28,200 bases of DNA from a virus, in IMG/VR virus record IMGVR_UViG_3300031566_000290, positions 1 to 28,200 of that record; one strand, given 5' to 3'. A program made the translations under genes and the position numbers. The notes beneath the pieces were generated by a model that was not told where the DNA came from, did not search any database, and worked only from the letters and a program-made list of their open reading frames with translations. Shown piece after piece: positions 1-14,711 of this stretch (the stretch's first letter is position 1; each line of letters starts with the position of its first letter).

Positions 1-489
1 TCACAACAAAAAAAAGCCGTTATTAAGGGAAGCGATATTGGTCTTCAATTAATTCAATACATTGGTGAACATAAAACTGTATCTGGTTTAATTTCACATT
101 GGAGTAGTGAGGTATGTTCCCTTCGAGATGAAATTATTAAAAGCGGTGTGTTGAATCCTCAAGAACATTCAGGATATGTTGCATTGGAAGATAAAGTGAA
201 CACTCTTATATTTTTAGCAAGAGTTTCCCCAACTATTCCTGATTTGAAAAATAATATTGAAACAATCTTTACAGATAAACTCACTGGGATTGTTCTCAGT
301 ACAATACATAAAGCAAAGGGATTGGAAGCAGATCGAGTTTTTATTATAAGACCAGACTTGCTACCATATCCAAATAATAAGAAATGGCAAATAGCACAAG
401 AGAAAAATCTTGAGTATGTCGCTATTACCAGAGCAAAAACAGAATTAATTTATGATCATGAGTGGACAGACGAAGAAGAAGAAAAGTAA
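1..489 (+). CDS. UvrD/PcrA-like superfamily 1 DNA helicase, C-terminal part (5' end outside window)
   Basis: The reading frame is open from the first base, so the gene begins upstream of the window and the TTG at 148 is not a real start. The visible part is the end of an SF1 helicase. STIHKAKGLEADRVFI (about 298-345) is helicase motif V, and EKNLEYVAITRAK (about 400-438) is motif VI with the arginine that contacts ATP gamma-phosphate. These are the hallmarks of the UvrD C-terminal domain, which couples ATP hydrolysis to 3'-5' movement on single-stranded DNA. A role in phage replication or recombination, as for T4 Dda or UvsW, is inferred from the family only. The Walker A and B motifs are not in view. 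The 3' end overlaps the next gene by 38 nt, suggesting one transcription unit. It ends in an acidic tail (DEEEEK). Confidence 0.85.
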   Translation, partial: SQQKKAVIKGSDIGLQLIQYIGEHKTVSGLISHWSSEVCSLRDEIIKSGVLNPQEHSGYVALEDKVNTLIFLARVSPTIPDLKNNIETIFTDKLTGIVLSTIHKAKGLEADRVFIIRPDLLPYPNNKKWQIAQEKNLEYVAITRAKTELIYDHEWTDEEEEK

Positions 490-1396
490 AACAGTCGCAG
501 AACTCGAACAGGAGTTGGCTGAATTAGAAGCATCTAATGCATCAATGTGGAATACATATGGAAGTGAACTTTGTGCTGGCGAGATGATTGAAGAAGAAAA
601 AGCACTTAGGAATAAAATTGAAAAATTAAAACAGCAAGAAGCAAATAAACTTTCATTTGAAGTAGGCAAAGCACACCAAAGAAAAATCCGTGAGGAAAAA
701 ATAAAAGAATATGCTAACGCCAAAGATAAGTATTGGGAAAATATAAACACAGATATTTCCAATGGAATCGTCAAGCCAATTACCTATCAAGAGGCAAAGG
801 ATATTATTGTGGAATATGAGTGGCTTGGTTGTATGCCCTCAATATCATCATATTATTTCGGTATTTTCTTTGATGGACATTGCGGTGGTGTAACAGTTTT
901 CGGAACTGAATATGCTGAAAATCGTGGTGTGTGGGACAAATATAACTACACTGGACGCATTCTCCTATTAGCACGGGGTGTCTGTGTTCATTGGGCACAT
1001 GAACATTGCGGAAGCAAATTAATTATGGAAAGCATTAAGCTCCTTCCAGAAAAATATGATGTTATTACCTGTACCACTGATCGAGCAGCAGGTGAAGTCG
1101 GTACAATATATCAAGCATGTAACTTCCATTATGTAGGCAGCATGCGAAAAGGTAGTGGTCATAGGTTTGGTGTGAAAATCGATGGAAAAATATACGGTTC
1201 ACGAACTATTCGTGCAAGGCTTGGTACAATGAGGAAGGAAGTAATTTTAGAGCATTATCCTGATGCTGAGTTTGTTCCGCAATATAATAAGGAAAGATAT
1301 TTCTACTTTCGTGGCAGTAAATCAAATAAGAGGTATTTAAAGAGACAGATACAACACATGATTAAACCATATCCTAAAAGAGATGAGCAAGAATAA
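452..1396 (+). CDS. Mom-like / GNAT-fold putative DNA-modification protein
   Basis: 314 aa. Residues about 12-95 are Lys/Glu-rich and probably coiled coil. Residues about 105-290 resemble the Mom family, GNAT-fold proteins that in phage Mu convert adenine to N6-carbamoylmethyl-adenine and so block host restriction. Supporting segments are YYFGIFFDGHCGGVTVFG (134-151), LLLARGVCVHWAHEHCGSKL (171-190) and, most telling, TTDRAAGEVGTIYQACNF (208-225), which matches the 'GTIYQA-N-Y-G' signature of Mom-like phage proteins. A plain acetyltransferase of the same fold is the main alternative. The ATG at 452 overlaps the helicase gene by 38 nt; an ATG at 458 is equally possible, and neither has a Shine-Dalgarno. 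The next gene begins inside its last codons. The N-terminal coiled coil is additional to the roughly 240-residue Mu protein. Substrate and product cannot be read from sequence. Confidence 0.6.
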   Translation: MIMSGQTKKKKSKTVAELEQELAELEASNASMWNTYGSELCAGEMIEEEKALRNKIEKLKQQEANKLSFEVGKAHQRKIREEKIKEYANAKDKYWENINTDISNGIVKPITYQEAKDIIVEYEWLGCMPSISSYYFGIFFDGHCGGVTVFGTEYAENRGVWDKYNYTGRILLLARGVCVHWAHEHCGSKLIMESIKLLPEKYDVITCTTDRAAGEVGTIYQACNFHYVGSMRKGSGHRFGVKIDGKIYGSRTIRARLGTMRKEVILEHYPDAEFVPQYNKERYFYFRGSKSNKRYLKRQIQHMIKPYPKRDEQE

Positions 1397-1730
1397 AAAG
1401 ATTAAATGGAAACAAAAGAAGGGTTGGGTAACAATTGAAGAGGTTGAAGCCAAAGCAGGTGTTAAATTAACCTACCCAAATCAACGTATTGAAGGAAGTG
1501 TAGATGAAGAAAGATATGCTGAATTAAGACGCTTTGGATGTTCGGATATTTGGGACGATAAAGGTAGTTGGTTACATAGAGATTGTTTTAGCAGGAACTG
1601 TAAAAGATGTAACTACTATCCAATCATGAAAAAATATTATGACGAAAAAGAACTTGATCCCGATATGCCAGCCGATTTAGGCAAGGCAGGGGCAGTTTTT
1701 GATTTTTTTGGAATTAAAAACGATGGATGA
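1383..1730 (+). CDS. Small Cys-rich protein, possible zinc binder, unknown function
   Basis: 115 aa, not recognised. The N-terminus is very basic (KNKKIKWKQKKG, residues 3-14). The middle holds C53, H65, C68, C73 and C76; the last three lie in RDCFSRNCKRCNYYP, a CxxC-containing cluster that could hold one zinc ion. It has no signal peptide or membrane segment. The start ATG lies inside the last codons of the Mom-like gene (14-nt overlap) and its stop overlaps the start of the SLOG gene by 8 nt, so it is almost certainly co-translated with both. A nucleic-acid-binding accessory role is a guess from the basic N-terminus and the Cys cluster. It is real rather than spurious because the frame fills the space between two convincing genes with the same stop/start overlaps. 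Confidence 0.7.
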   Translation: MSKNKKIKWKQKKGWVTIEEVEAKAGVKLTYPNQRIEGSVDEERYAELRRFGCSDIWDDKGSWLHRDCFSRNCKRCNYYPIMKKYYDEKELDPDMPADLGKAGAVFDFFGIKNDG

Positions 1731-2085
1731 AATTAAAGTAATAATAGCTGGTGGCAGAGATTTCGATAATTACGAGCATCTAATGAATGCTTGTGATTAC
1801 ATGCTACAAAACTGTGGTTATATCGAAGTAGTAAGTGGTGGCGCAAAAGGTGCAGATATTCTTGGAGAGAAATATGCCTATGAAAGAGGATATCCTGTTA
1901 AAAGATTCCCTGCGGATTGGGATAAACACGGTAAGAGTGCCGGTTATAAAAGAAATGTTGAAATGGCAGATTATGCAGATGCTCTAATCGCCTTTTGGGA
2001 CGGTAAAAGCAAGGGAACTAAACACATGATCGACATCGCTAAAAATAAAAAGTTAAAAGTAAAAACATATGGATACACAATCTAA
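1723..2085 (+). CDS. SLOG-superfamily (DUF2493/YspA-like) nucleotide-binding Rossmann protein
   Basis: 120 aa from the ATG at 1723. An in-frame ATG at 1699 exists, but 1723 gives the short ATGGATGA overlap with the upstream stop and starts directly on the first beta strand. IIAGGRDF (7-14) is the glycine-rich first loop, VVSGGAKGAD (36-45) is the second signature, and a third block lies at DYADALIAFWDGKSKGTKHM (83-102). Together these are typical of DUF2493 proteins of the SLOG superfamily, the fold of DprA and of lysine-decarboxylase-like (LOG) nucleotide hydrolases. SLOG domains bind nucleotide-derived ligands or DNA ends. Which ligand applies here is unknown. It is the fourth member of an overlapping cluster with a helicase and a Mom-like protein, so a link to nucleic-acid modification or sensing is possible but unproven. 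Confidence 0.8.
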   Translation: MDEIKVIIAGGRDFDNYEHLMNACDYMLQNCGYIEVVSGGAKGADILGEKYAYERGYPVKRFPADWDKHGKSAGYKRNVEMADYADALIAFWDGKSKGTKHMIDIAKNKKLKVKTYGYTI

Positions 2086-2383
2086 TGAACAATTCATTCA
2101 CTATTTGTGGATTAATGAGAAAGAAGGTAAGATCGGAATCTACCTTAATGTCTTGGAAAGAAAATTAATCTTTCGTGGAATGATGAAGGTTAAATTTGAT
2201 GGGATGTCAAACTATCACGTATTGGGTGAAAAGGAATATACCCTTGGGGACGGTGAACTAAATTTTGAAAAAGTATGTAAAGCGGTATATGATCAAATGC
2301 AGGAAAACCTTACTCTAATAAAAGGAGTACAAGCATTCTTAGCAGAAACTACCCAAATCGAAATTAAGGAAGAAGAAGATTAG
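2069..2383 (+). CDS. Small hypothetical protein
   Basis: 104 aa, not recognised. It is soluble, has no Cys pairs, and ends in an acidic tail (EIKEEED). Alternating hydrophobic residues in KIGIYLNVLERKLIFRGMMK suggest a small beta-rich or alpha/beta domain. The ATG lies 17 nt inside the SLOG gene, continuing the run of overlapping genes. Its stop overlaps, by 4 nt, the stop of the convergent minus-strand gene. It is the last gene of the left-hand plus-strand operon. No function can be assigned. Confidence 0.65.
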   Translation: MDTQSNEQFIHYLWINEKEGKIGIYLNVLERKLIFRGMMKVKFDGMSNYHVLGEKEYTLGDGELNFEKVCKAVYDQMQENLTLIKGVQAFLAETTQIEIKEEED

Positions 2384-2862
2384 TCATGTGTTGATGCTAA
2401 AGATGTATCGCTTACCGCCTCAGTAGTGGTAGCAGATAACGACCCACTACTATTTTCTTCACCAATTGAGTTGTTCAAATCTCTAAAACGATTATTGTTT
2501 GCTGTAATAGCATCGGTATTCTTTTTTATTGCACCTCTTATGTCATCAAATTCTTCAGAAATAAATTCTTTTTGTTCAATATACAATTCTTTCTGATGAA
2601 TATTGGATTGGTTCATAGCAGGGATTATAACAAGTTTATAAAATCCAATAAACATCCCCAAAATTGTTAAAATTGTTGCAATAAATCCTTTTAACGTAAA
2701 AAGGATTTGGGTGTTTGGACTTATTGTTATCGTATTATTGGTTGTCGTATTATTTACGGTAGTTCCAGTGTCAGGCATTTTCTTCTTTTTCTTTTTAGTT
2801 TTGGCTAACCCCACAATTTTTATTATGCCGTTAATTATTTTTTCGAGTAATTCTATTTTCAT
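2380..2862 (-). CDS. Small membrane protein with one TM helix and C-terminal coiled coil
   Basis: 160 aa from the ATG at 2862; a GTG nine bases upstream (2871) is possible. The layout is a short amphipathic N-terminus, a run of six lysines (KTKKKKKKMPD), a Thr/Asn-rich stretch, one strong transmembrane helix around TLKGFIATILTILGMFIGF, then a charged probable coiled coil (HQKELYIEQKEFISEEFDD) and a Ser/Thr-rich tail. It overlaps the end of the upstream exported-protein gene by 32 nt. The layout would suit a phage envelope or lysis protein, but no holin or spanin family was recognised. It converges on the plus-strand operon with a 4-nt stop overlap and no terminator hairpin between them. Confidence 0.6.
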   Translation of the reverse strand: MKIELLEKIINGIIKIVGLAKTKKKKKKMPDTGTTVNNTTTNNTITISPNTQILFTLKGFIATILTILGMFIGFYKLVIIPAMNQSNIHQKELYIEQKEFISEEFDDIRGAIKKNTDAITANNNRFRDLNNSIGEENSSGSLSATTTEAVSDTSLASTHD

Positions 2863-3382
2863 ATGTTGCACTTTCCCATTTAATTGAATAATTCACTAAT
2901 TCTTTGGGATTGGTAGTATCATATTCATATAACAACGTTGGTTCTCCTTGAATGTATGCGGGAAATCCATCTGGAAATTCACCATTTGTTACATCCACAT
3001 CGTTAATGTATATGCGTGCGTTATATATCCACGTCCCAGTACTGTCTCCTTGATATATTGAATTACTAATCAAATATAGTCTATAACAATAAATCATTTT
3101 ATTTACATACTGAATCTCTTGTTGTGTCGAATTAAGTTTGTAAATATTTTGTTTCGCCATTATTTCCTTGTCAATTCTTTTTTCTTCGTGTTGACTAAAT
3201 GTAGAATAGGCAGTAATAGATACCTTAACCCCAACATCAGTATTTGGCATCACCCAAGTACCCAAATCTTGATGTTTTGATTCTTTTGGTTCAGCATTTT
3301 GTCCGTTTAAAAACAATGCCATTGACAATAGAATTAAAATGATAATTATCCTCAATATAATCCTCTTTGTTTTTCTCTTCAT
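2831..3382 (-). CDS. Hypothetical exported or membrane-anchored protein
   Basis: 183 aa. The N-terminus is a basic segment (MKRKTKR) followed by a long hydrophobic stretch (IILRIIIILILLSMALFL), so it is a signal anchor or signal peptide; there is no clear lipobox cysteine. The rest is soluble, Tyr-rich and probably beta-rich, including WIYNARIYINDVDV. It is preceded by a copy of the TATTTATA motif only 6 nt upstream of the ATG, so it should be expressed late. It lies just past the terminator of the capsid gene. Together with the next membrane protein it could form an envelope or lysis pair, but that is inference from topology only. It belongs to no family I recognise. Confidence 0.6.
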   Translation of the reverse strand: MKRKTKRIILRIIIILILLSMALFLNGQNAEPKESKHQDLGTWVMPNTDVGVKVSITAYSTFSQHEEKRIDKEIMAKQNIYKLNSTQQEIQYVNKMIYCYRLYLISNSIYQGDSTGTWIYNARIYINDVDVTNGEFPDGFPAYIQGEPTLLYEYDTTNPKELVNYSIKWESATYENRITRKNN

Positions 3383-3457: not shown

Positions 3458-5131
3458 TTATCTCAATTCGCCAATTCCGAATGTTTGAAGACCATCACAG
3501 TAGATTCTACCATAGTAACGGTTCAATACCATTTTCTTAGCATAACGAGTCATGATACCACGAATCGGAGTGAAATCGAATGGATTGTACATTACAGGAG
3601 TTAACTGCATTGGTACATAAGGAGCGTAGATATAACCAGTTTCAAGGATTGAAGTACCTTTATGACCAATAAGCACTGTGTTAGCAGGAGCATAAGGATC
3701 ACGATATACTTGGTAACGACCTGAAAGTGTACCAATTTTTTCAATACCCATGTTATATTTATCTTGCTCTGGAGCAGCGTTGCTCACGTGGAAGTACTCA
3801 AGGTCATCGAATACTGCACTTACTTCTGGAGACACAACTACCCATGAAGCACCACCACGAAGGGTTGCTTTGTGGATTTGAGCGGAAATTTGGTTGATCT
3901 TAGTGATCAATGTCTGGTTCCAATCCTTTTGTGTACCGTAGTAAGATGTAGATTGCTTACGAAGACCATTATAGTCCCAACGTACTGTCCATGCTGCGCC
4001 TCTACGTAGATCACGAAGAATCTCACGGTCAACTTCAGCAGCCATTTGTTCTGAAAGAAGAGCAGTTAACTCAGCTTCAGCGTCAATGTTGTGGAATGCA
4101 CTAACGTCTTGTGCCAATTCAGGAGTCCACTGAGCACGCATTTTACGTGTTTCAACAGATACTGTAACTTGGTCAAGTACGAAAGTTACTTCAGCCATAC
4201 GACTATCTTCTTCAATGTCACTATATGTTCTATAGCTATAGTTGAATGCAGGTGTAGTTGCAGCAGAAAGTGGTTGGAAACCATCGGTTCCAGCATATGT
4301 TAAGTCAACATAAACCTCTAAAACACCGTTTTTGTTAACGATTGCCTGTCCGTACTTCTGTACTCTCACATTGAAAGGAAGTGAAGTACCAGCCAACATA
4401 GTTTCGGTTGAGAAAGCAGCAGGTGCTACAAAGTCAACGCTTGAGAAAATTCTCAAACCAGCAAGGAATGATTCAGTGTCCATAGGAACACCAGCAGGAC
4501 CAATTAATTTACCTTCAAAAGTAGTACTAAAACCACTAATTGTAAGTAACAATTGCTTATCACCTGCTGCATACACAGGAGGTCCTTGAACAGTAACACC
4601 AGTTACAACAGTGATCTGACCCTTTGAACGGTCAAACAATGAAGTACCTTCTTCTGCATACTCAGTTGCATAAAATGCATCATACAATGAATTTTGTTGG
4701 AACTGTGTTCTTGCAGATAGTGCTAATTCAGCAGCGTTTGAGTATGCGCCATCGGGTGAAGTATTGTTATACTGATTATTACCCATGTCTACTCTTTCAC
4801 TTGCTTTAGGGTTGATATAATATAACTTACCAATAGGCAAGTTCAATGCCTGTACAGACACGATATCGTTTGCTAACAATTTAGCAAATACTCTTCGGAT
4901 AACTGGAAAAGCTACAGTTTCAAACTGACCTGACGATGCAGAATCAGTAGATTCGTTAATCATATATGATAATTGATTTTCGAATAACTGAGCGCAATTT
5001 TCCTTAACATTACCCTCAAGACCTTCTAACAGACCGATTTTTTCCCAACGGTTTGTAGTGATCTCTCTTTGTTCACGAAGTTGTTTTAATCCAATATTAC
5101 CAACTTCTGCGCTTTCGGTTAAAAATCCCAT
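3458..5131 (-). CDS. Major capsid protein, T4 gp23-like
   Basis: 557 aa (T4 gp23: 521). The N-terminal region carries the family signature: WEKIGLLEGLEGNVKENCAQ (29-48), then FENQLSYMINE (50-60), then AFPVIRRVFAKLLANDIVSV (74-93), followed by the QALNLPIGKLYY segment. This protein forms the hexamers of the icosahedral shell. MINE at 57-60 fits the (L/I)xE cut site of gp21-type proteases and sits close to the Glu65 cut of T4 gp23, so the first 60 residues are probably removed on maturation. The gene follows the scaffold gene after 21 nt with no promoter motif of its own, so it should be co-transcribed with it, and a strong terminator follows the stop. The codons look polished, as expected for a highly expressed gene. 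The start has no Shine-Dalgarno, only an A/T-rich leader. Confidence 0.93.
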   Translation of the reverse strand: MGFLTESAEVGNIGLKQLREQREITTNRWEKIGLLEGLEGNVKENCAQLFENQLSYMINESTDSASSGQFETVAFPVIRRVFAKLLANDIVSVQALNLPIGKLYYINPKASERVDMGNNQYNNTSPDGAYSNAAELALSARTQFQQNSLYDAFYATEYAEEGTSLFDRSKGQITVVTGVTVQGPPVYAAGDKQLLLTISGFSTTFEGKLIGPAGVPMDTESFLAGLRIFSSVDFVAPAAFSTETMLAGTSLPFNVRVQKYGQAIVNKNGVLEVYVDLTYAGTDGFQPLSAATTPAFNYSYRTYSDIEEDSRMAEVTFVLDQVTVSVETRKMRAQWTPELAQDVSAFHNIDAEAELTALLSEQMAAEVDREILRDLRRGAAWTVRWDYNGLRKQSTSYYGTQKDWNQTLITKINQISAQIHKATLRGGASWVVVSPEVSAVFDDLEYFHVSNAAPEQDKYNMGIEKIGTLSGRYQVYRDPYAPANTVLIGHKGTSILETGYIYAPYVPMQLTPVMYNPFDFTPIRGIMTRYAKKMVLNRYYGRIYCDGLQTFGIGELR

Positions 5132-8149: not shown

Positions 8150-11100
8150 ATGGCAGGAAATGTAAAACTTATCGATCCGAATAATGCAAACCTAAACTAT
8201 ATTCAAAATAGTAAGGGTGAAAAAGAATATCAGCACAATGGAATCCCACCATATGAGGACATGTATATTCTTGCCGAATTAAGTGCTGTTCGTAGAGGGA
8301 GAACAATTTTAACTACAAGAATTGATACTGATATCACAAAAAAAGACGAAAGAAGTTTTAATGACGATAGGTATGTTAGCTTTATGGGGCAAAATCAAGA
8401 CCCTGATAATGAAGCGCATTTTAATCAATATACCACTAACTGGTATGATGGAAGTACTGATGTTAATAAAACCTATGAGGGTTTTGGTATCAGTAAAATT
8501 GATATTGAAATAAATTCATCATATATTCCACAAATCAGCATTGAATTTGTAGACATTAGAGGTTTAGCATTTTTTAATCGTGAGAACTCGCCATATCGAA
8601 TATTGTTCGATTTCCCCCCACCAATTTTTTATCTTTCATTTAAGGGATACTACGGTAAGATATTAACATACCAAATGCACTTGGTAAAATATAATACCGA
8701 ATTTAAGGCAGAAACTGGTAATTATCATATTGATGCAAATTTTATTGCTATTACATATGCACCATTAACAGACATTCCATTCAGATATATTCTTCAAGCA
8801 CCTTTAATGGACAAAGATAATCCAGTAACATTATCGCCAGATTCTACTGAACCACCACAGAACACCTTGGATTTGATTTTAAAATTAGAGCAAGTTTATT
8901 CAGAAATTCCTGAAAAAATTAAAACGGATGTTGAAAATACAAAATATGAGAATGCTCAAACAAAATTAGCATTATATAATAGATCATTAGAATTATTATT
9001 TAATTTTAAAAACGAGAAATCGTTAACCGATTTGGGTGATCCAATTTTATTTACATATAATATTTCACCAAATGAAAGTAATCAGCGCACAGTTAAAGAA
9101 ATTAAAACGTTTTCTGAATATAATGATTATTTAAGAACATTTGCGTCCCCCGACCTTCCTGTGAATATTAGTAAACAATTATACATTGGTTATTTTTCTG
9201 ATAAATCGGTTGAGGTTGAACTTGACGAGAATGGAAACCCCATTACAACATACAACACAGCACTTAATTTAAGAAATGCTAAATATTCAGAAGAATTAAA
9301 TAAATACAAGAAAAAACTGGAATTAAAGGGAAAGGATATTATAAGTGGAATTAATGCGAAGGACATTAAAGACGCTGAACCTATTTGGGATAACACAGAG
9401 GGAGAATTAATTGAGGAAACACAATATATACGTCATATCGGAATTAATATCACTGACTACTATGTTAAATTATACAGGGGGAAAAAGGAATTAGAGGATG
9501 AAAAATTAATCACATCCTCAAGTTTAAATACCAAGATAAATAGTATGATTTTAAAACGTCTTGGTATGTTGCCAACCATTTACAATATTTTTGAAATATT
9601 GATGAATGATGTTGATAAATTCTTCTCTGTACTTAAAACCACAACAACAGATGCTGAAGAGCACCATGCAAGGTATAAAAATCAGATTATTAACGATCCA
9701 TCATATAAAGACGTAAAGGAAGATACCGATGTGTTCGCATTTCCGTTGGTCGTTAGACAAGAAAAAATATGTAATCAAATTGTAGAGGAAAGAAGAGCAC
9801 CCTTTGAAATTAGTGATAAGTGTGATCAACCATTTCCTGAATTGGATTTGGTTCAAAGGTTTATCGACTCGTTCATTAAATACAATAGAATATATAACCA
9901 AGCAACACTAAAATCAGAAAAAGACGCACAGGGTGATTATAAATGGATTCCATCTACACCCGTTGATAGTCGTTTTGTAACATCAAATTTACACAGTCCT
10001 TATTTTGGAACAGATAGTAGTGATGGTGAACAAACAATAAATTTGGTCGATGATACCCGCTTAAATCAAATCATCAAAATATTTTATGAAAGATTTCAAC
10101 TTCTAACTGGGTTTGCACTCCCATATTCATTTTATAATATATCTGACCCCAATAAAGTAAGATTATATGATATTGATAATGCTGCGAGTGAAGCATATAT
10201 TAAATTATATGCTGAAGCCGAAGCAATAAATTTGGTGAATTCAATAATAAATGAAGACTATGCTCAACTCTTAAAAACTTTTGCATCTAAAAACAATTCT
10301 CAAAAGGGTTTATATGATCCAGCAAATGGTTTTTTTAAATATATTGAAAAAAACCTGCCAGCACTTTATAGTGATACACCAACGAATTATAGTTTCTCGA
10401 ATGGGGATGCAATGTATAGAGATAAAAAGGATGAGGATTTCGTGGGACTTACGGTAGTTCCCACAACAAACATCGAAATGAGAAGTGGTGCATCAAAAGA
10501 CGGATTTAATGAGTTCATTGAAAAAACAAAAACAAATTGGAGAGACATTATTTTTAAGGGTCGATCTGATGTCATTGAAGACTCATTTGGTTTCACTGCC
10601 GAAAATGTTATTTTTCGTTCCGACACTGATTCGAAGAACGATGCATTTAATAGAACAAAATTTATTGCAAGTACATGGACTTGGTATAGAAATGATAGGC
10701 TATTTGGTGCAAATAATGGGGGGATTGTGTTTAACCCCCCAATTGGTGGTACAGAAACATTTGACACTCCTTTTCCTGAGATACTTGATAAACTGAGCGA
10801 TAACGGAAATCAATGGTTCTTTGAACAAGGCATTACTTATGGAAGAATTCTTGATGTTAAAGATACTACGGGAATCGAGGGTGTTTGGCTTGATGAATTA
10901 GGTCTTGCCGATACACAAATGTATCCAGTAATTATTGATTATGATAGTACAGAGTTTGATCTCGAATTATCAACTCTAATGTACTTATCTAATTTTGGAA
11001 GAACATTGTCCGCCTTTAATTATTTCCCATATTTTCTAAATAAGGATTTCTTTTCAACACCCTCATTAATTGAATTACCTCAATTTGTTCTCGCATATAT

Positions 11101-12880
11101 GGGAATGTTGGTGGGACATCAAAAGGGAGATGCTTTATGGACAAGATTATATGATTTTATTGTTACTGGTGCAGGTAAAAGATTAGATTCAGCATGTATT
11201 ATGATTTTTGCGGATATTCATGACGTTAATAAATACTTGAGTTCAATAGATAAGGAATATCTTAGAACATATTATGAAACGTGGGTAGGTCTTAATTACA
11301 ATGATTTGAAACTTAATATGAAAGAATTGTACCGACTTGTTGACCCACAGAAATGTGTTGATGAATTCAATCCTGAACAATATTCAGACACAAAGACTAA
11401 GTTTTATGAGACAGAGAATAAAATGGTTGAGTGTAAGAAGGAAAAATACTCGAAATTTTTAGTAAAACACAATAAAGACTATAATGCCAGTAAGGGATTT
11501 GATTACATGTGGGATGGTATGTTGAATAGAGTCGCATTAGTTTGTTACAGTGAGTTAACATTTAGATTCGAAGAAGAAATCAATCCTCTTTACAGTTCAC
11601 TTGAAGAAAAATTGAGTGGTACGGATAATACTTTTAATGTTGATACATACGGTGCACAAATAAAATCAAAAACAGAACAATTCTTTTATACGTTTTTCGG
11701 GGAATTAAATACAAGAATTGAAAAAAGACGAAAACAATTAGATAACGAAAAAAAGGAATTCGAAAAATCAACTGGGGATCAAGATATTGTGACCCAAACA
11801 TATTATTCGTTTAAAAACATAAATGATAAATGGCTTGCTGGATTAAGTAAAAACATAAATGGTTATCCATTTAAAACGAATACCAACAAAGGATTAATTA
11901 GTCAATTTGCTTTTGTTGACAGAGCAATGAATCCAATTGGGGACACTATAATTGATGTCAGAAACCTAATTGATGCCAAGGACAGTCCCGATTTATCAAT
12001 ATTCACAGTAATATCTCAAATGTTATCATTAAATGGCTTTGAATTTTTTCCACTACAAAACTTCATGAGTTTTCAAGAAGATGAATGGGAAGATTGTTTT
12101 AAAATTGATACCAGTGGTAAACAAGAACAACACCCCGTATTTGTGTGTATGTTTATTGGAGGAACATCAAGTTATCCAACAGGTCTTGAAAAATATTCAC
12201 CGTTTAAAGATGATGGAATTGCTGATTTAGGAAATCCACCAAGTGACTTTTTAAACGAGGGGTGCACACCTAATGAAGAAGGTGATCGTCAAATCGATGA
12301 ATATGATTCCTTTGGAAATCCTGTAACACCAGAGAAAGGAAATATATATAGCCAAGTCCGTGCATTTCGAGTTCGTTATGGTGAACAAAACCAAAACATG
12401 TTTTATAATTTCGGTATTGATAGTAAAGAATATCCAGAAACAAACGAATCAATTCAAATACTTTCACGATTAGCTGGTGATGAAAAAACTCAATCGCCTG
12501 TTCCTAAAGCACAGAGTTTATATAGCACATATGAAAATAGAGCGTATCGAGCAAACATTACTGGTTTTGGAAATGCCATGCTTCAACCAACACAATATTT
12601 TCAATTAGAAAACGTACCAATATTCAATGGAGCATATATAATATTAACGGTGAGACATCAGATAACCGCAAATAAAATGGTTACAAGTTTTTCTGGAACA
12701 AAACTGCTTAAATATCCAATGCCAAGAGTTCTAAATCCTGCTGCAATTGTCGGATTCGATGGTGGAAGTTCAGACACCGCATCTTCATTGACCTTTGAAG
12801 AAGTTACGTTGGGAGTTGGAACAGCAGAAAATCCAGCACAAGCTAAATACAATTCAATGTACACATTAGAAATTTATTAA
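8150..12880 (+). CDS. Giant baseplate-hub-like structural protein
   Basis: 1576 aa. The last part (about 1460-1520) has the hub/VgrG-type pattern: an N-terminal GFGNAMLQPTQYFQL, then NVPIFNGAYIILTVRHQI, then VTSFSGTKLL. This 'low-energy beta-barrel, gained ligand-free H' pattern recurs in T4 gp27, Mu gp44 and VgrG proteins that form the trimeric hub at the tip of contractile tails. An N-terminal beta-rich block (about 115-220, GFGISKIDIEINSSYIPQIS and ILFDFPPPIFYLSFKGYYGK) would supply the other hub domain. The roughly 1200 residues between are unrecognised, with charged helices around 1110-1240. T4 gp27 has only 391 aa, so this is a greatly enlarged version or a fusion. The next gene, a lysin, starts one base after the stop, matching the gp27-gp5 partnership. 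Alternative: another large baseplate or tail protein. Confidence 0.6.
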   Translation: MAGNVKLIDPNNANLNYIQNSKGEKEYQHNGIPPYEDMYILAELSAVRRGRTILTTRIDTDITKKDERSFNDDRYVSFMGQNQDPDNEAHFNQYTTNWYDGSTDVNKTYEGFGISKIDIEINSSYIPQISIEFVDIRGLAFFNRENSPYRILFDFPPPIFYLSFKGYYGKILTYQMHLVKYNTEFKAETGNYHIDANFIAITYAPLTDIPFRYILQAPLMDKDNPVTLSPDSTEPPQNTLDLILKLEQVYSEIPEKIKTDVENTKYENAQTKLALYNRSLELLFNFKNEKSLTDLGDPILFTYNISPNESNQRTVKEIKTFSEYNDYLRTFASPDLPVNISKQLYIGYFSDKSVEVELDENGNPITTYNTALNLRNAKYSEELNKYKKKLELKGKDIISGINAKDIKDAEPIWDNTEGELIEETQYIRHIGINITDYYVKLYRGKKELEDEKLITSSSLNTKINSMILKRLGMLPTIYNIFEILMNDVDKFFSVLKTTTTDAEEHHARYKNQIINDPSYKDVKEDTDVFAFPLVVRQEKICNQIVEERRAPFEISDKCDQPFPELDLVQRFIDSFIKYNRIYNQATLKSEKDAQGDYKWIPSTPVDSRFVTSNLHSPYFGTDSSDGEQTINLVDDTRLNQIIKIFYERFQLLTGFALPYSFYNISDPNKVRLYDIDNAASEAYIKLYAEAEAINLVNSIINEDYAQLLKTFASKNNSQKGLYDPANGFFKYIEKNLPALYSDTPTNYSFSNGDAMYRDKKDEDFVGLTVVPTTNIEMRSGASKDGFNEFIEKTKTNWRDIIFKGRSDVIEDSFGFTAENVIFRSDTDSKNDAFNRTKFIASTWTWYRNDRLFGANNGGIVFNPPIGGTETFDTPFPEILDKLSDNGNQWFFEQGITYGRILDVKDTTGIEGVWLDELGLADTQMYPVIIDYDSTEFDLELSTLMYLSNFGRTLSAFNYFPYFLNKDFFSTPSLIELPQFVLAYMGMLVGHQKGDALWTRLYDFIVTGAGKRLDSACIMIFADIHDVNKYLSSIDKEYLRTYYETWVGLNYNDLKLNMKELYRLVDPQKCVDEFNPEQYSDTKTKFYETENKMVECKKEKYSKFLVKHNKDYNASKGFDYMWDGMLNRVALVCYSELTFRFEEEINPLYSSLEEKLSGTDNTFNVDTYGAQIKSKTEQFFYTFFGELNTRIEKRRKQLDNEKKEFEKSTGDQDIVTQTYYSFKNINDKWLAGLSKNINGYPFKTNTNKGLISQFAFVDRAMNPIGDTIIDVRNLIDAKDSPDLSIFTVISQMLSLNGFEFFPLQNFMSFQEDEWEDCFKIDTSGKQEQHPVFVCMFIGGTSSYPTGLEKYSPFKDDGIADLGNPPSDFLNEGCTPNEEGDRQIDEYDSFGNPVTPEKGNIYSQVRAFRVRYGEQNQNMFYNFGIDSKEYPETNESIQILSRLAGDEKTQSPVPKAQSLYSTYENRAYRANITGFGNAMLQPTQYFQLENVPIFNGAYIILTVRHQITANKMVTSFSGTKLLKYPMPRVLNPAAIVGFDGGSSDTASSLTFEEVTLGVGTAENPAQAKYNSMYTLEIY

Positions 12881-12881
12881 A

Positions 12882-14711
12882 ATGCGCAAAAATACTATAA
12901 TAACACAAAAGGGTAAGGAATTTATAACACAGGTTGTTACGCTTGGGGGAAACAAACTCTTAGAGGGTAATAATGGACCATTACCGTTTAGTGATAATGG
13001 AACTGGAAATAAGGTTGATAAAACGTGGGTGGTAAATGCAATTGCTTCGGATGGGAAACCATTGAATGTTTCTAATTTAGCTCAATCGTTAATTGATTGG
13101 TTTCAAAAATATGGTGACATGTATGAACTCGATCCAAACATTTTAGCTGCACAAGCATATGTTGAATCTGGTTATCGACTTTGGTATTATTCTAAAACAA
13201 CCACTGCATCTGGATTACTTCAATTCAAAATGTTGGATATTTTTAGCCTTGTTATAAATAATTTCGGTGCAGGCGGTCCTCTTTATTGGAGCGAAGAAAA
13301 CCTCAATGCATATCGTCCATTGAACGCAATTATTGATGGACTTGAGCAAGAGCTTGCTGTTTCCTCATATGAATCAGATAGTGGTGCACCCGGTACTCGA
13401 ATAGTTGCTACCCAAAATCGAATAATTTTACACCAAAACATTATTAACAATCCCGAATATATGATCAAAGCACAGGCGAGATATATGAGATATTTTGCAG
13501 AAAACTGTGGAAAACTCGCAAGCACATCACTACTGTGCTTTAGAGCAGGTGCTAAATATGTTACAGATACATATTCAAGATCAATTGAAAAGTTACTCAA
13601 GGATTATGATAATGATGTTAATAACCCAATAGTAAAAGATGCATTGGATTATGTGTTGACTGTTTGGGGTGTGTTAGGCGACAACAACAATAGAATTTTT
13701 GGTGGGAAAGAAATAAAAAAATATAAACCACTTTATCACACTTTTGGATATACTGATTTATTTAGACATGCAAGTAATGACGACTTCGCAACATATCCGA
13801 ATGAAAATTTCGACCCATTTGCTGCAAATGTAACTGAAGCCGATGAGTATGGAATTATCGCCTCAGACTTAGATGACCTTTCAATTGCCAGAGATAGTAG
13901 ATATAAATTTATATATTTCCCATCAGATCAGTACTTCCAAGGTGAAGCTACAAGCAAAGCACAAATTGTATTGCACCATACCGTTAGTGGTGATAAAGGT
14001 GGTGTTGGTGGCGATATTAAATGGTGGAGAGATAAAGGAGAAAAGGTTGCCACTGCATTTATAATCGCAAGAGATGGTGGAATATATCAATTATTCAATA
14101 CCAATTATTGGGCATATCATCTTGGTCTCAAAGACAATAGAAACAAATCTCTAAATCAACATTCCATAGGGATCGAGATTGATTCTTGGGGTGGTTTGAA
14201 ACAAGGTAAAGATGCTCAAGGTAATTTAGGTTGGTATCCTACGATTATGTTTGATAAAGATAGACAGTCTCAGGAAATAAGAAAAGGGGCAAGTCCAGTT
14301 ACCGATGTTACATTTTATAATTCAAAAACGGGATATCCAAATGGTTTTAGAGGATTCTATGCATTCGAAACATATACTCAAACTCAAATAGATGCCGTTA
14401 GGGATTTAATATTATCATTAGTGTTTCAATCAAAAATGAATGAAAATGATAACGCAAGGGGAGGTAAGTTTCCAGACATTAGTTTAGTGTTTAATGAAGA
14501 CATTTGGAACATTAATTATAATTATTCTGGCGCAGAACTTATTAGTACAAGCAGTCCAGATGGTGCGCCAGCCATTTCAGAAAATGCAATGAAAGGTAAA
14601 AAGGGTATTTGGACACATACAAGTTATCGTGCTGACAAATCGGATTGTCATCCTCAATTAGAATTGATTAAGATGTTACAGAGTTTACAAAATTATCGAT
14701 CTAAAGTATAG
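12882..14711 (+). CDS. Tail-associated lysin: transglycosylase-like domain plus N-acetylmuramoyl-L-alanine amidase domain
   Basis: 609 aa with two predicted peptidoglycan hydrolases. Domain 1 (about 65-240) is SLT/lysozyme-like: LDPNILAAQAYVESGYRLWY (83-102) with catalytic Glu95, then TTASGLLQF (107-115). Domain 2 (about 355-595) is Amidase_2-like: IVLHHT (362-367; His365 or His366 as the first zinc ligand), YHLG (412-415), and SIGIEID (428-434). No ordinary GHRD block follows, but WTHTSYRADKSDCHP (577-591) near the C-terminus could provide the remaining ligands. It starts one base after the hub-like gene, so the pair is probably translated together and the protein probably sits at the tail tip, as gp5 does in T4, to open the cell wall during infection. 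An endolysin for release is the alternative, although no signal peptide or holin neighbour supports it. It ends inside the convergent gene by 11 nt. Confidence 0.75.
   Translation: MRKNTIITQKGKEFITQVVTLGGNKLLEGNNGPLPFSDNGTGNKVDKTWVVNAIASDGKPLNVSNLAQSLIDWFQKYGDMYELDPNILAAQAYVESGYRLWYYSKTTTASGLLQFKMLDIFSLVINNFGAGGPLYWSEENLNAYRPLNAIIDGLEQELAVSSYESDSGAPGTRIVATQNRIILHQNIINNPEYMIKAQARYMRYFAENCGKLASTSLLCFRAGAKYVTDTYSRSIEKLLKDYDNDVNNPIVKDALDYVLTVWGVLGDNNNRIFGGKEIKKYKPLYHTFGYTDLFRHASNDDFATYPNENFDPFAANVTEADEYGIIASDLDDLSIARDSRYKFIYFPSDQYFQGEATSKAQIVLHHTVSGDKGGVGGDIKWWRDKGEKVATAFIIARDGGIYQLFNTNYWAYHLGLKDNRNKSLNQHSIGIEIDSWGGLKQGKDAQGNLGWYPTIMFDKDRQSQEIRKGASPVTDVTFYNSKTGYPNGFRGFYAFETYTQTQIDAVRDLILSLVFQSKMNENDNARGGKFPDISLVFNEDIWNINYNYSGAELISTSSPDGAPAISENAMKGKKGIWTHTSYRADKSDCHPQLELIKMLQSLQNYRSKV

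Follow-up and report, generated by a model that had tools for sequence, protein, structure and literature searches.

Does a Mom-type gene that lies next to a SLOG gene behind a phage helicase belong with it to a single nucleic-acid modification or sensing module, as a sequence-only reading of this DNA had suggested, or are the two unrelated neighbours? The stretch of DNA that raises the question, referred to here as the window, is a single IMG/VR record of 28,200 bases whose first letter already falls inside an SF1 helicase gene. The features that bear on the question are these:

1 to 489, plus strand: C-terminal end of an SF1 (UvrD-type) helicase, truncated where the contig begins; bounds the variable interval on one side (UvrD_C, 1.1e-15; PHROG 1967 DNA helicase, 3.2e-20)
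452 to 637, plus strand: "ccN" segment of the Mom protein, residues 1-62, with the YGSELC turn (tblastn/HMM matches to stand-alone genes; AlphaFold2)
638 to 1396, plus strand: Mom (GNAT-fold) domain, residues ~63-314 (Pfam PF25680, E 2.5e-25; best PDB fold match 8bv8)
1383 to 1730, plus strand: 115-aa orphan with four clustered cysteines, without relatives in the collections searched
1723 to 2085, plus strand: YAcAr/YspA-type SLOG protein, 120 aa from ATG 1723 (YAcAr PF10686, E 1.1e-17; PHROG 289, E 2.4e-34)
2069 to 2383, plus strand: 104-aa protein, kept at the same place in the family and not cargo (cluster in 45-46 of 55 intervals)
2380 to 2871, minus strand: 163-aa protein, often but not always present in the interval (27 of the 80 related loci give a match)
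2831 to 3382, minus strand: 183-aa protein, often present in the interval (24 of the 80 related loci give a match)
3458 to 5131, minus strand: T4-type major capsid protein, bounding the variable interval opposite the helicase (match to PHROG 138, major head protein, at E 5.1e-66)
8150 to 12880, plus strand: 1,576-aa protein, kept beside the capsid region in 69 of the 80 related loci
12882 to 14711, plus strand: N-acetylmuramoyl-L-alanine amidase domain protein, plus a sub-threshold transglycosylase match

All four overlapping open reading frames that had been described 3' of the helicase are present. The helicase overlaps the 314-aa Mom-family product by 38 nt (452-489), which in turn overlaps the orphan by 14 nt (1383-1396); the orphan overlaps the SLOG gene by 8 nt (1723-1730), and the SLOG gene overlaps the 104-aa frame by 17 nt (2069-2085). 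A stand-alone ccN gene in locus L134 (loci gathered for comparison carry L numbers) overlaps its helicase identically, evidence for a start at 452 and for the 38-nt overlap, and the relatives in L134 and L146 favour ATG 1723 over TTG 1699 as the SLOG start. From these overlapping plus-strand frames, the operon-like packing of the helicase with the genes that follow it appears to have been read correctly.

Besides the T4-type capsid protein, the window encodes a prohead protease (S77), a portal protein and a terminase. Since its capsid protein is 68-87% identical to those of 80 retained relatives on contigs of up to 365 kb, the window is taken to be one piece of a T4-like jumbo phage genome; among cultured or deposited phages, the nearest capsid matches are just 31-43% identical. 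The product of 8150-12880 gave no significant match in Pfam and PHROG profile searches. In 54 of the 80 related loci the helicase and the capsid gene face each other, their matched ends lying about 0.4 to 6.6 kb apart. When the window itself is counted, which gives 55 intervals, 28 contain GIY-YIG endonuclease proteins and 13 contain Mom domains. As judged by comparative sequence analysis, the helicase-capsid stretch is a variable accessory cargo interval of this T4-like jumbo phage family.

We find that the product of 452-1396 carries a genuine Mom-type domain, as the evidence of profile, fold and conserved residues indicates. The Mom assignment, which had originally been made from the sequence alone, is borne out by profile searches (PF25680, 89.8 bits against a curated cut-off of 27.1; PHROG 1384, E 2.3e-26), and a Foldseek search of the PDB returned the Mom protein of phage Mu (8bv8) as its top match (E 1.3e-11), a structure that the family profile also matches (E 1.5e-10). 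Residues R111, S124, D149 and Y159 of Mu Mom correspond to R175, S188, D210 and Y220 in the window and are the same in all 40 aligned proteins; the S124A form of Mu Mom is called inactive in a PDB title. Mu H58-Y59, which we take to be residues of importance next to the active region, is replaced by E123-W124 in the window and in most of its branch, and the group transferred could therefore differ. It is also conceivable, if unlikely, that this Mom-like enzyme acts on RNA, a protein or a small molecule rather than on phage DNA, as the GNAT fold is common to tRNA and protein acetyltransferases and the E-W for H-Y exchange lies by the active region; Mu Mom itself, however, is the best match in both fold and sequence, and the arginine, serine, aspartate and tyrosine do not vary. 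We note that a Mom relative in L239 (Vibrio phage 501E54-1) has a thymidylate synthase and a Dam-type methyltransferase in its vicinity.

The fusion within 452-1396 had not been foreseen: residues ~1-62 of the Mom protein correspond to a separate small protein. Homologues of ccN that stand alone were found by tblastn/HMM in L134, L142, L146, L149, L150, L152, L211 and L214. Three of these, L134, L146 and L211, have neither the Mom domain nor the orphan; there the helicase is followed by the small protein on its own (79-157 aa) and then by SLOG. In the window ccN runs in frame into a complete Mom domain, after which comes the orphan gene; the start of the second part of the fusion coincides with the N-terminus of stand-alone Mom proteins in other phages. 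Taken together, the gene order of L134 and the position of these Mom starts at the junction make the window look like the L134 arrangement with an in-frame Mom domain and an orphan added. An AlphaFold2 model of the Mom protein, built from a 42-row alignment, has a mean pLDDT of 91 and places N-terminal helices at residues 15-36 and 42-66, with the invariant YGSELC motif around the turn of the predicted helical hairpin. The exact YGSELC pattern is rare, being found in 10 IMG/VR contigs and 2 GTDB bacterial genome-bin contigs, and only in the window, among the contigs that bear it, is the module attached to Mom; tblastn for the module in phage records gave no match. The two bacterial contigs are from metagenome-assembled bins (L235 and L236, one of them labelled Candidatus Sungbacteria) and carry the module as YGSELCAG.

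What might such a hairpin do for a Mom enzyme? In relatives it is found alone or on other tails, some of which resemble the N-terminus of the capsid protein. In the small proteins of L146 (4111-4347, minus strand) and L211 (5998-6468, plus strand), the YGSELC hairpin is followed by a stretch that is similar to the capsid protein of the window phage over residues ~12-61 (46-74% by tblastn, E 6e-6 and 0.007); this stretch, which is missing from the window fusion, is possibly a prohead-targeting peptide. The predicted shape and the swapping of tails suggest that the hairpin probably serves in Mom oligomerisation or in docking on another phage protein. A more specific version, in which the hairpin is a docking adaptor and the fusion steers Mom to the replication machinery or the prohead so as to couple modification to replication or packaging, seems to us rather improbable.

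The fusion is seen in one contig only and ccN otherwise stands alone in the helicase-capsid spot, as might be expected if the junction were an assembly chimera or a recent and functionless one. We consider this very unlikely, given that the reading frame is open through the ccN-Mom junction, that GC and GC3 on either side resemble those of the neighbours, that the helicase, SLOG and 104-aa genes around it stand in the order usual for the family, and that the predicted structure is confident in the ccN and Mom parts alike.

The Mom domains of the family also bear on where the fused copy came from. Twelve of the 13 Mom-bearing intervals hold Mom-GIY-YIG fusions on the capsid side (13 proteins in all, two of them confirmed by Pfam); the window is the sole Mom-bearing interval without a nuclease, and its Mom lies on the opposite strand, within the helicase operon. 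The capsid-side, plus-strand fusions to a SegE-like GIY-YIG domain are those of L142, L145, L149, L154, L166, L170 and L190, with a tandem pair in L178, and their genes mostly begin about 35-100 nt past the major capsid gene. Weaker Mom matches occur in further frames of 500-640 aa elsewhere in the family records. With so many fusions in this very interval of its relatives, the window's Mom domain might be thought to have arrived as a Mom-GIY-YIG homing endonuclease that afterwards lost its nuclease. This is a highly improbable history: in a maximum-likelihood tree the 14 Moms of capsid-side loci form a single clade apart from the window Mom, which groups with the stand-alone Moms of L001, L004 and L038 at 100/99 support, and the window Mom lies on the other strand and side and shows no trace of a nuclease. 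Since the capsid proteins on the L001, L004, L037 and L038 records are 55-65% identical to that of the window, the tree grouping suggests that the source of the Mom domain was probably a related jumbo phage.

The 115-aa protein between Mom and SLOG had been described as an unrecognised Cys-rich protein. It has indeed no relative among phages, in IMG/VR, in GTDB or among 209 of the loci gathered for comparison, but it contains only four cysteines (C53, C68, C73 and C76, with one CxxC). A single-sequence structure model was uninformative (pLDDT 42). A role as an analogue of Com was considered and rejected, as the gene lies 3' of Mom instead of 5' and its cysteine pattern is unlike that of Com.

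The SLOG assignment also withstood profile searches; the PF10686 match scores 64 bits against a cut-off of 28.2 and covers profile positions 2-66 of 66. Because SLOG genes are widespread in phages (1,245 of 50,697 phage records, and 31% of jumbo phages according to PMC9503650), Mom-SLOG neighbours are to be expected by chance. Among the interval proteins scanned there was no SIR2 or TIR match of the kind that a Thoeris-type SIR2-SLOG plus TIR arrangement would give, and the SLOG protein stands alone. The C-terminal part of a 561-aa annotated putative helicase of ICP1 (L209, MN419153) is a SLOG domain. Near the 80 SLOG loci surveyed, no homologue of the window helicase was found, so that in this sample the ICP1 type of fusion cannot be taken as the rule; a general SLOG-helicase neighbourhood was rejected on the same count.

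Are Mom and SLOG linked? Their functional connection had been drawn from adjacency, and a gene-neighbourhood survey did not find the pairing to recur. Elsewhere in the viral collection, SLOG occurs within 6 kb of none of 45 Mom loci and Mom within 6 kb of none of 80 SLOG loci, Mom exceeds the cut-off in none of 49 SLOG-bearing records outside the family, and the one other Mom record (of 45) that holds a SLOG has it over 100 kb distant; several of these negatives depend on the sensitivity of pattern-plus-tblastn scans. Across 44 non-redundant intervals of the family, with the window excluded, co-occurrence is at chance level (table 30/3/10/1, odds ratio 1.0, p 0.70), and 44 family records hold Mom in 20, SLOG in 10 and both in 5, where 4.5 would be expected. 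These samples consist of kin sequences, which the test takes as more independent than they are, and the records are mostly fragments, so that the absence of a gene is weak evidence, equally for Mom and for SLOG. By these comparisons of sequence records, Mom and SLOG are independent accessory genes that are statistically unassociated in the family. That Mom, the orphan and SLOG are nonetheless one module, with SLOG making or sensing a nucleotide precursor for the Mom modification, is extremely unlikely: the three genes are adjacent, overlapping and on the same strand in the window contig, and the L154 interval also holds Mom and SLOG (on opposite strands, about 2 kb apart), but against this stand the survey counts, the SLOG genes found at this spot with Mom absent (L134, L138, L146 and L211) and the consideration that, to our knowledge, Mu Mom requires no SLOG partner.

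The best explanation overall, and one that we regard as likely, is that these genes are cargo of the variable interval, with the ccN-Mom fusion as the main new feature and SLOG as an unrelated neighbour. The fusion protein is best read as an anti-restriction enzyme that was gained horizontally and has taken on a new architecture. A small hairpin protein, which stands alone behind the helicase in relatives, would have been joined to a complete Mom domain as its N-terminal part, and the orphan may have arrived with the Mom domain or next to it. By analogy with Mu Mom, the Mom domain would add a methylcarbamoyl-type group to adenines of the phage DNA and so hide that DNA from restriction enzymes, a chemistry that we draw from the PDB molecule name, PMC7824862 and general knowledge, and the hairpin would probably allow Mom to form oligomers or to dock on a further phage protein. 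SLOG would be an independent counter-defence gene that, by analogy with the predictions in PMC9503650, most likely binds or cleaves an immune signal derived from a nucleotide, for instance cyclic ADP-ribose. What is new here is a Mom domain fused to a hairpin, in one metagenomic contig; the Mom and SLOG families themselves were known.

If this reading is correct, the locus shows the acquisition of an anti-restriction enzyme into a native phage operon, within a jumbo-phage family that displays Mom-less relatives, the occupied state and the likely donor branch side by side. A further caution is that function is not to be read from adjacency in phage accessory spots, and the Mom-GIY-YIG fusions that adjoin the capsid gene suggest that homing endonucleases take DNA-modification domains along with them.

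Comparison with known systems places the locus further. Viral SLOGs have been predicted to sense or cleave an NAD-derived immune signal (PMC9503650), and the window SLOG resembles the YAcAr/YpsA-like phage SLOGs of that study in being a small, stand-alone and full-length phage protein with nothing unusual in its sequence; unlike the SLOG of ICP1, which is the C-terminus of a putative helicase, it adjoins a helicase without being fused to it. The variable interval is reminiscent of HEG-islands (PMC10448857) in lying by the essential capsid gene and often containing GIY-YIG endonucleases, although a profile search detects no endonuclease in the window's own interval. With Mu Mom (8bv8, PF25680) the window protein has in common the family, the fold and the R/S/D/Y residues, but at about 20% identity, and it has an added N-terminal hairpin and E-W in place of H58-Y59; in contrast to the com-mom arrangement of Mu, the start of the window Mom is overlapped by a helicase gene and not by the gene for the zinc-finger protein Com. 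Lastly, Mom enzymes have been reported in jumbo phages as fusions to endonuclease domains (PMC7824862). The window copy is nuclease-free, and the nuclease of its relatives is GIY-YIG rather than of the restriction-enzyme fold and lies beside the capsid gene; nevertheless the window too holds a jumbo-phage Mom domain, and its close relatives likewise fuse Mom to an endonuclease.
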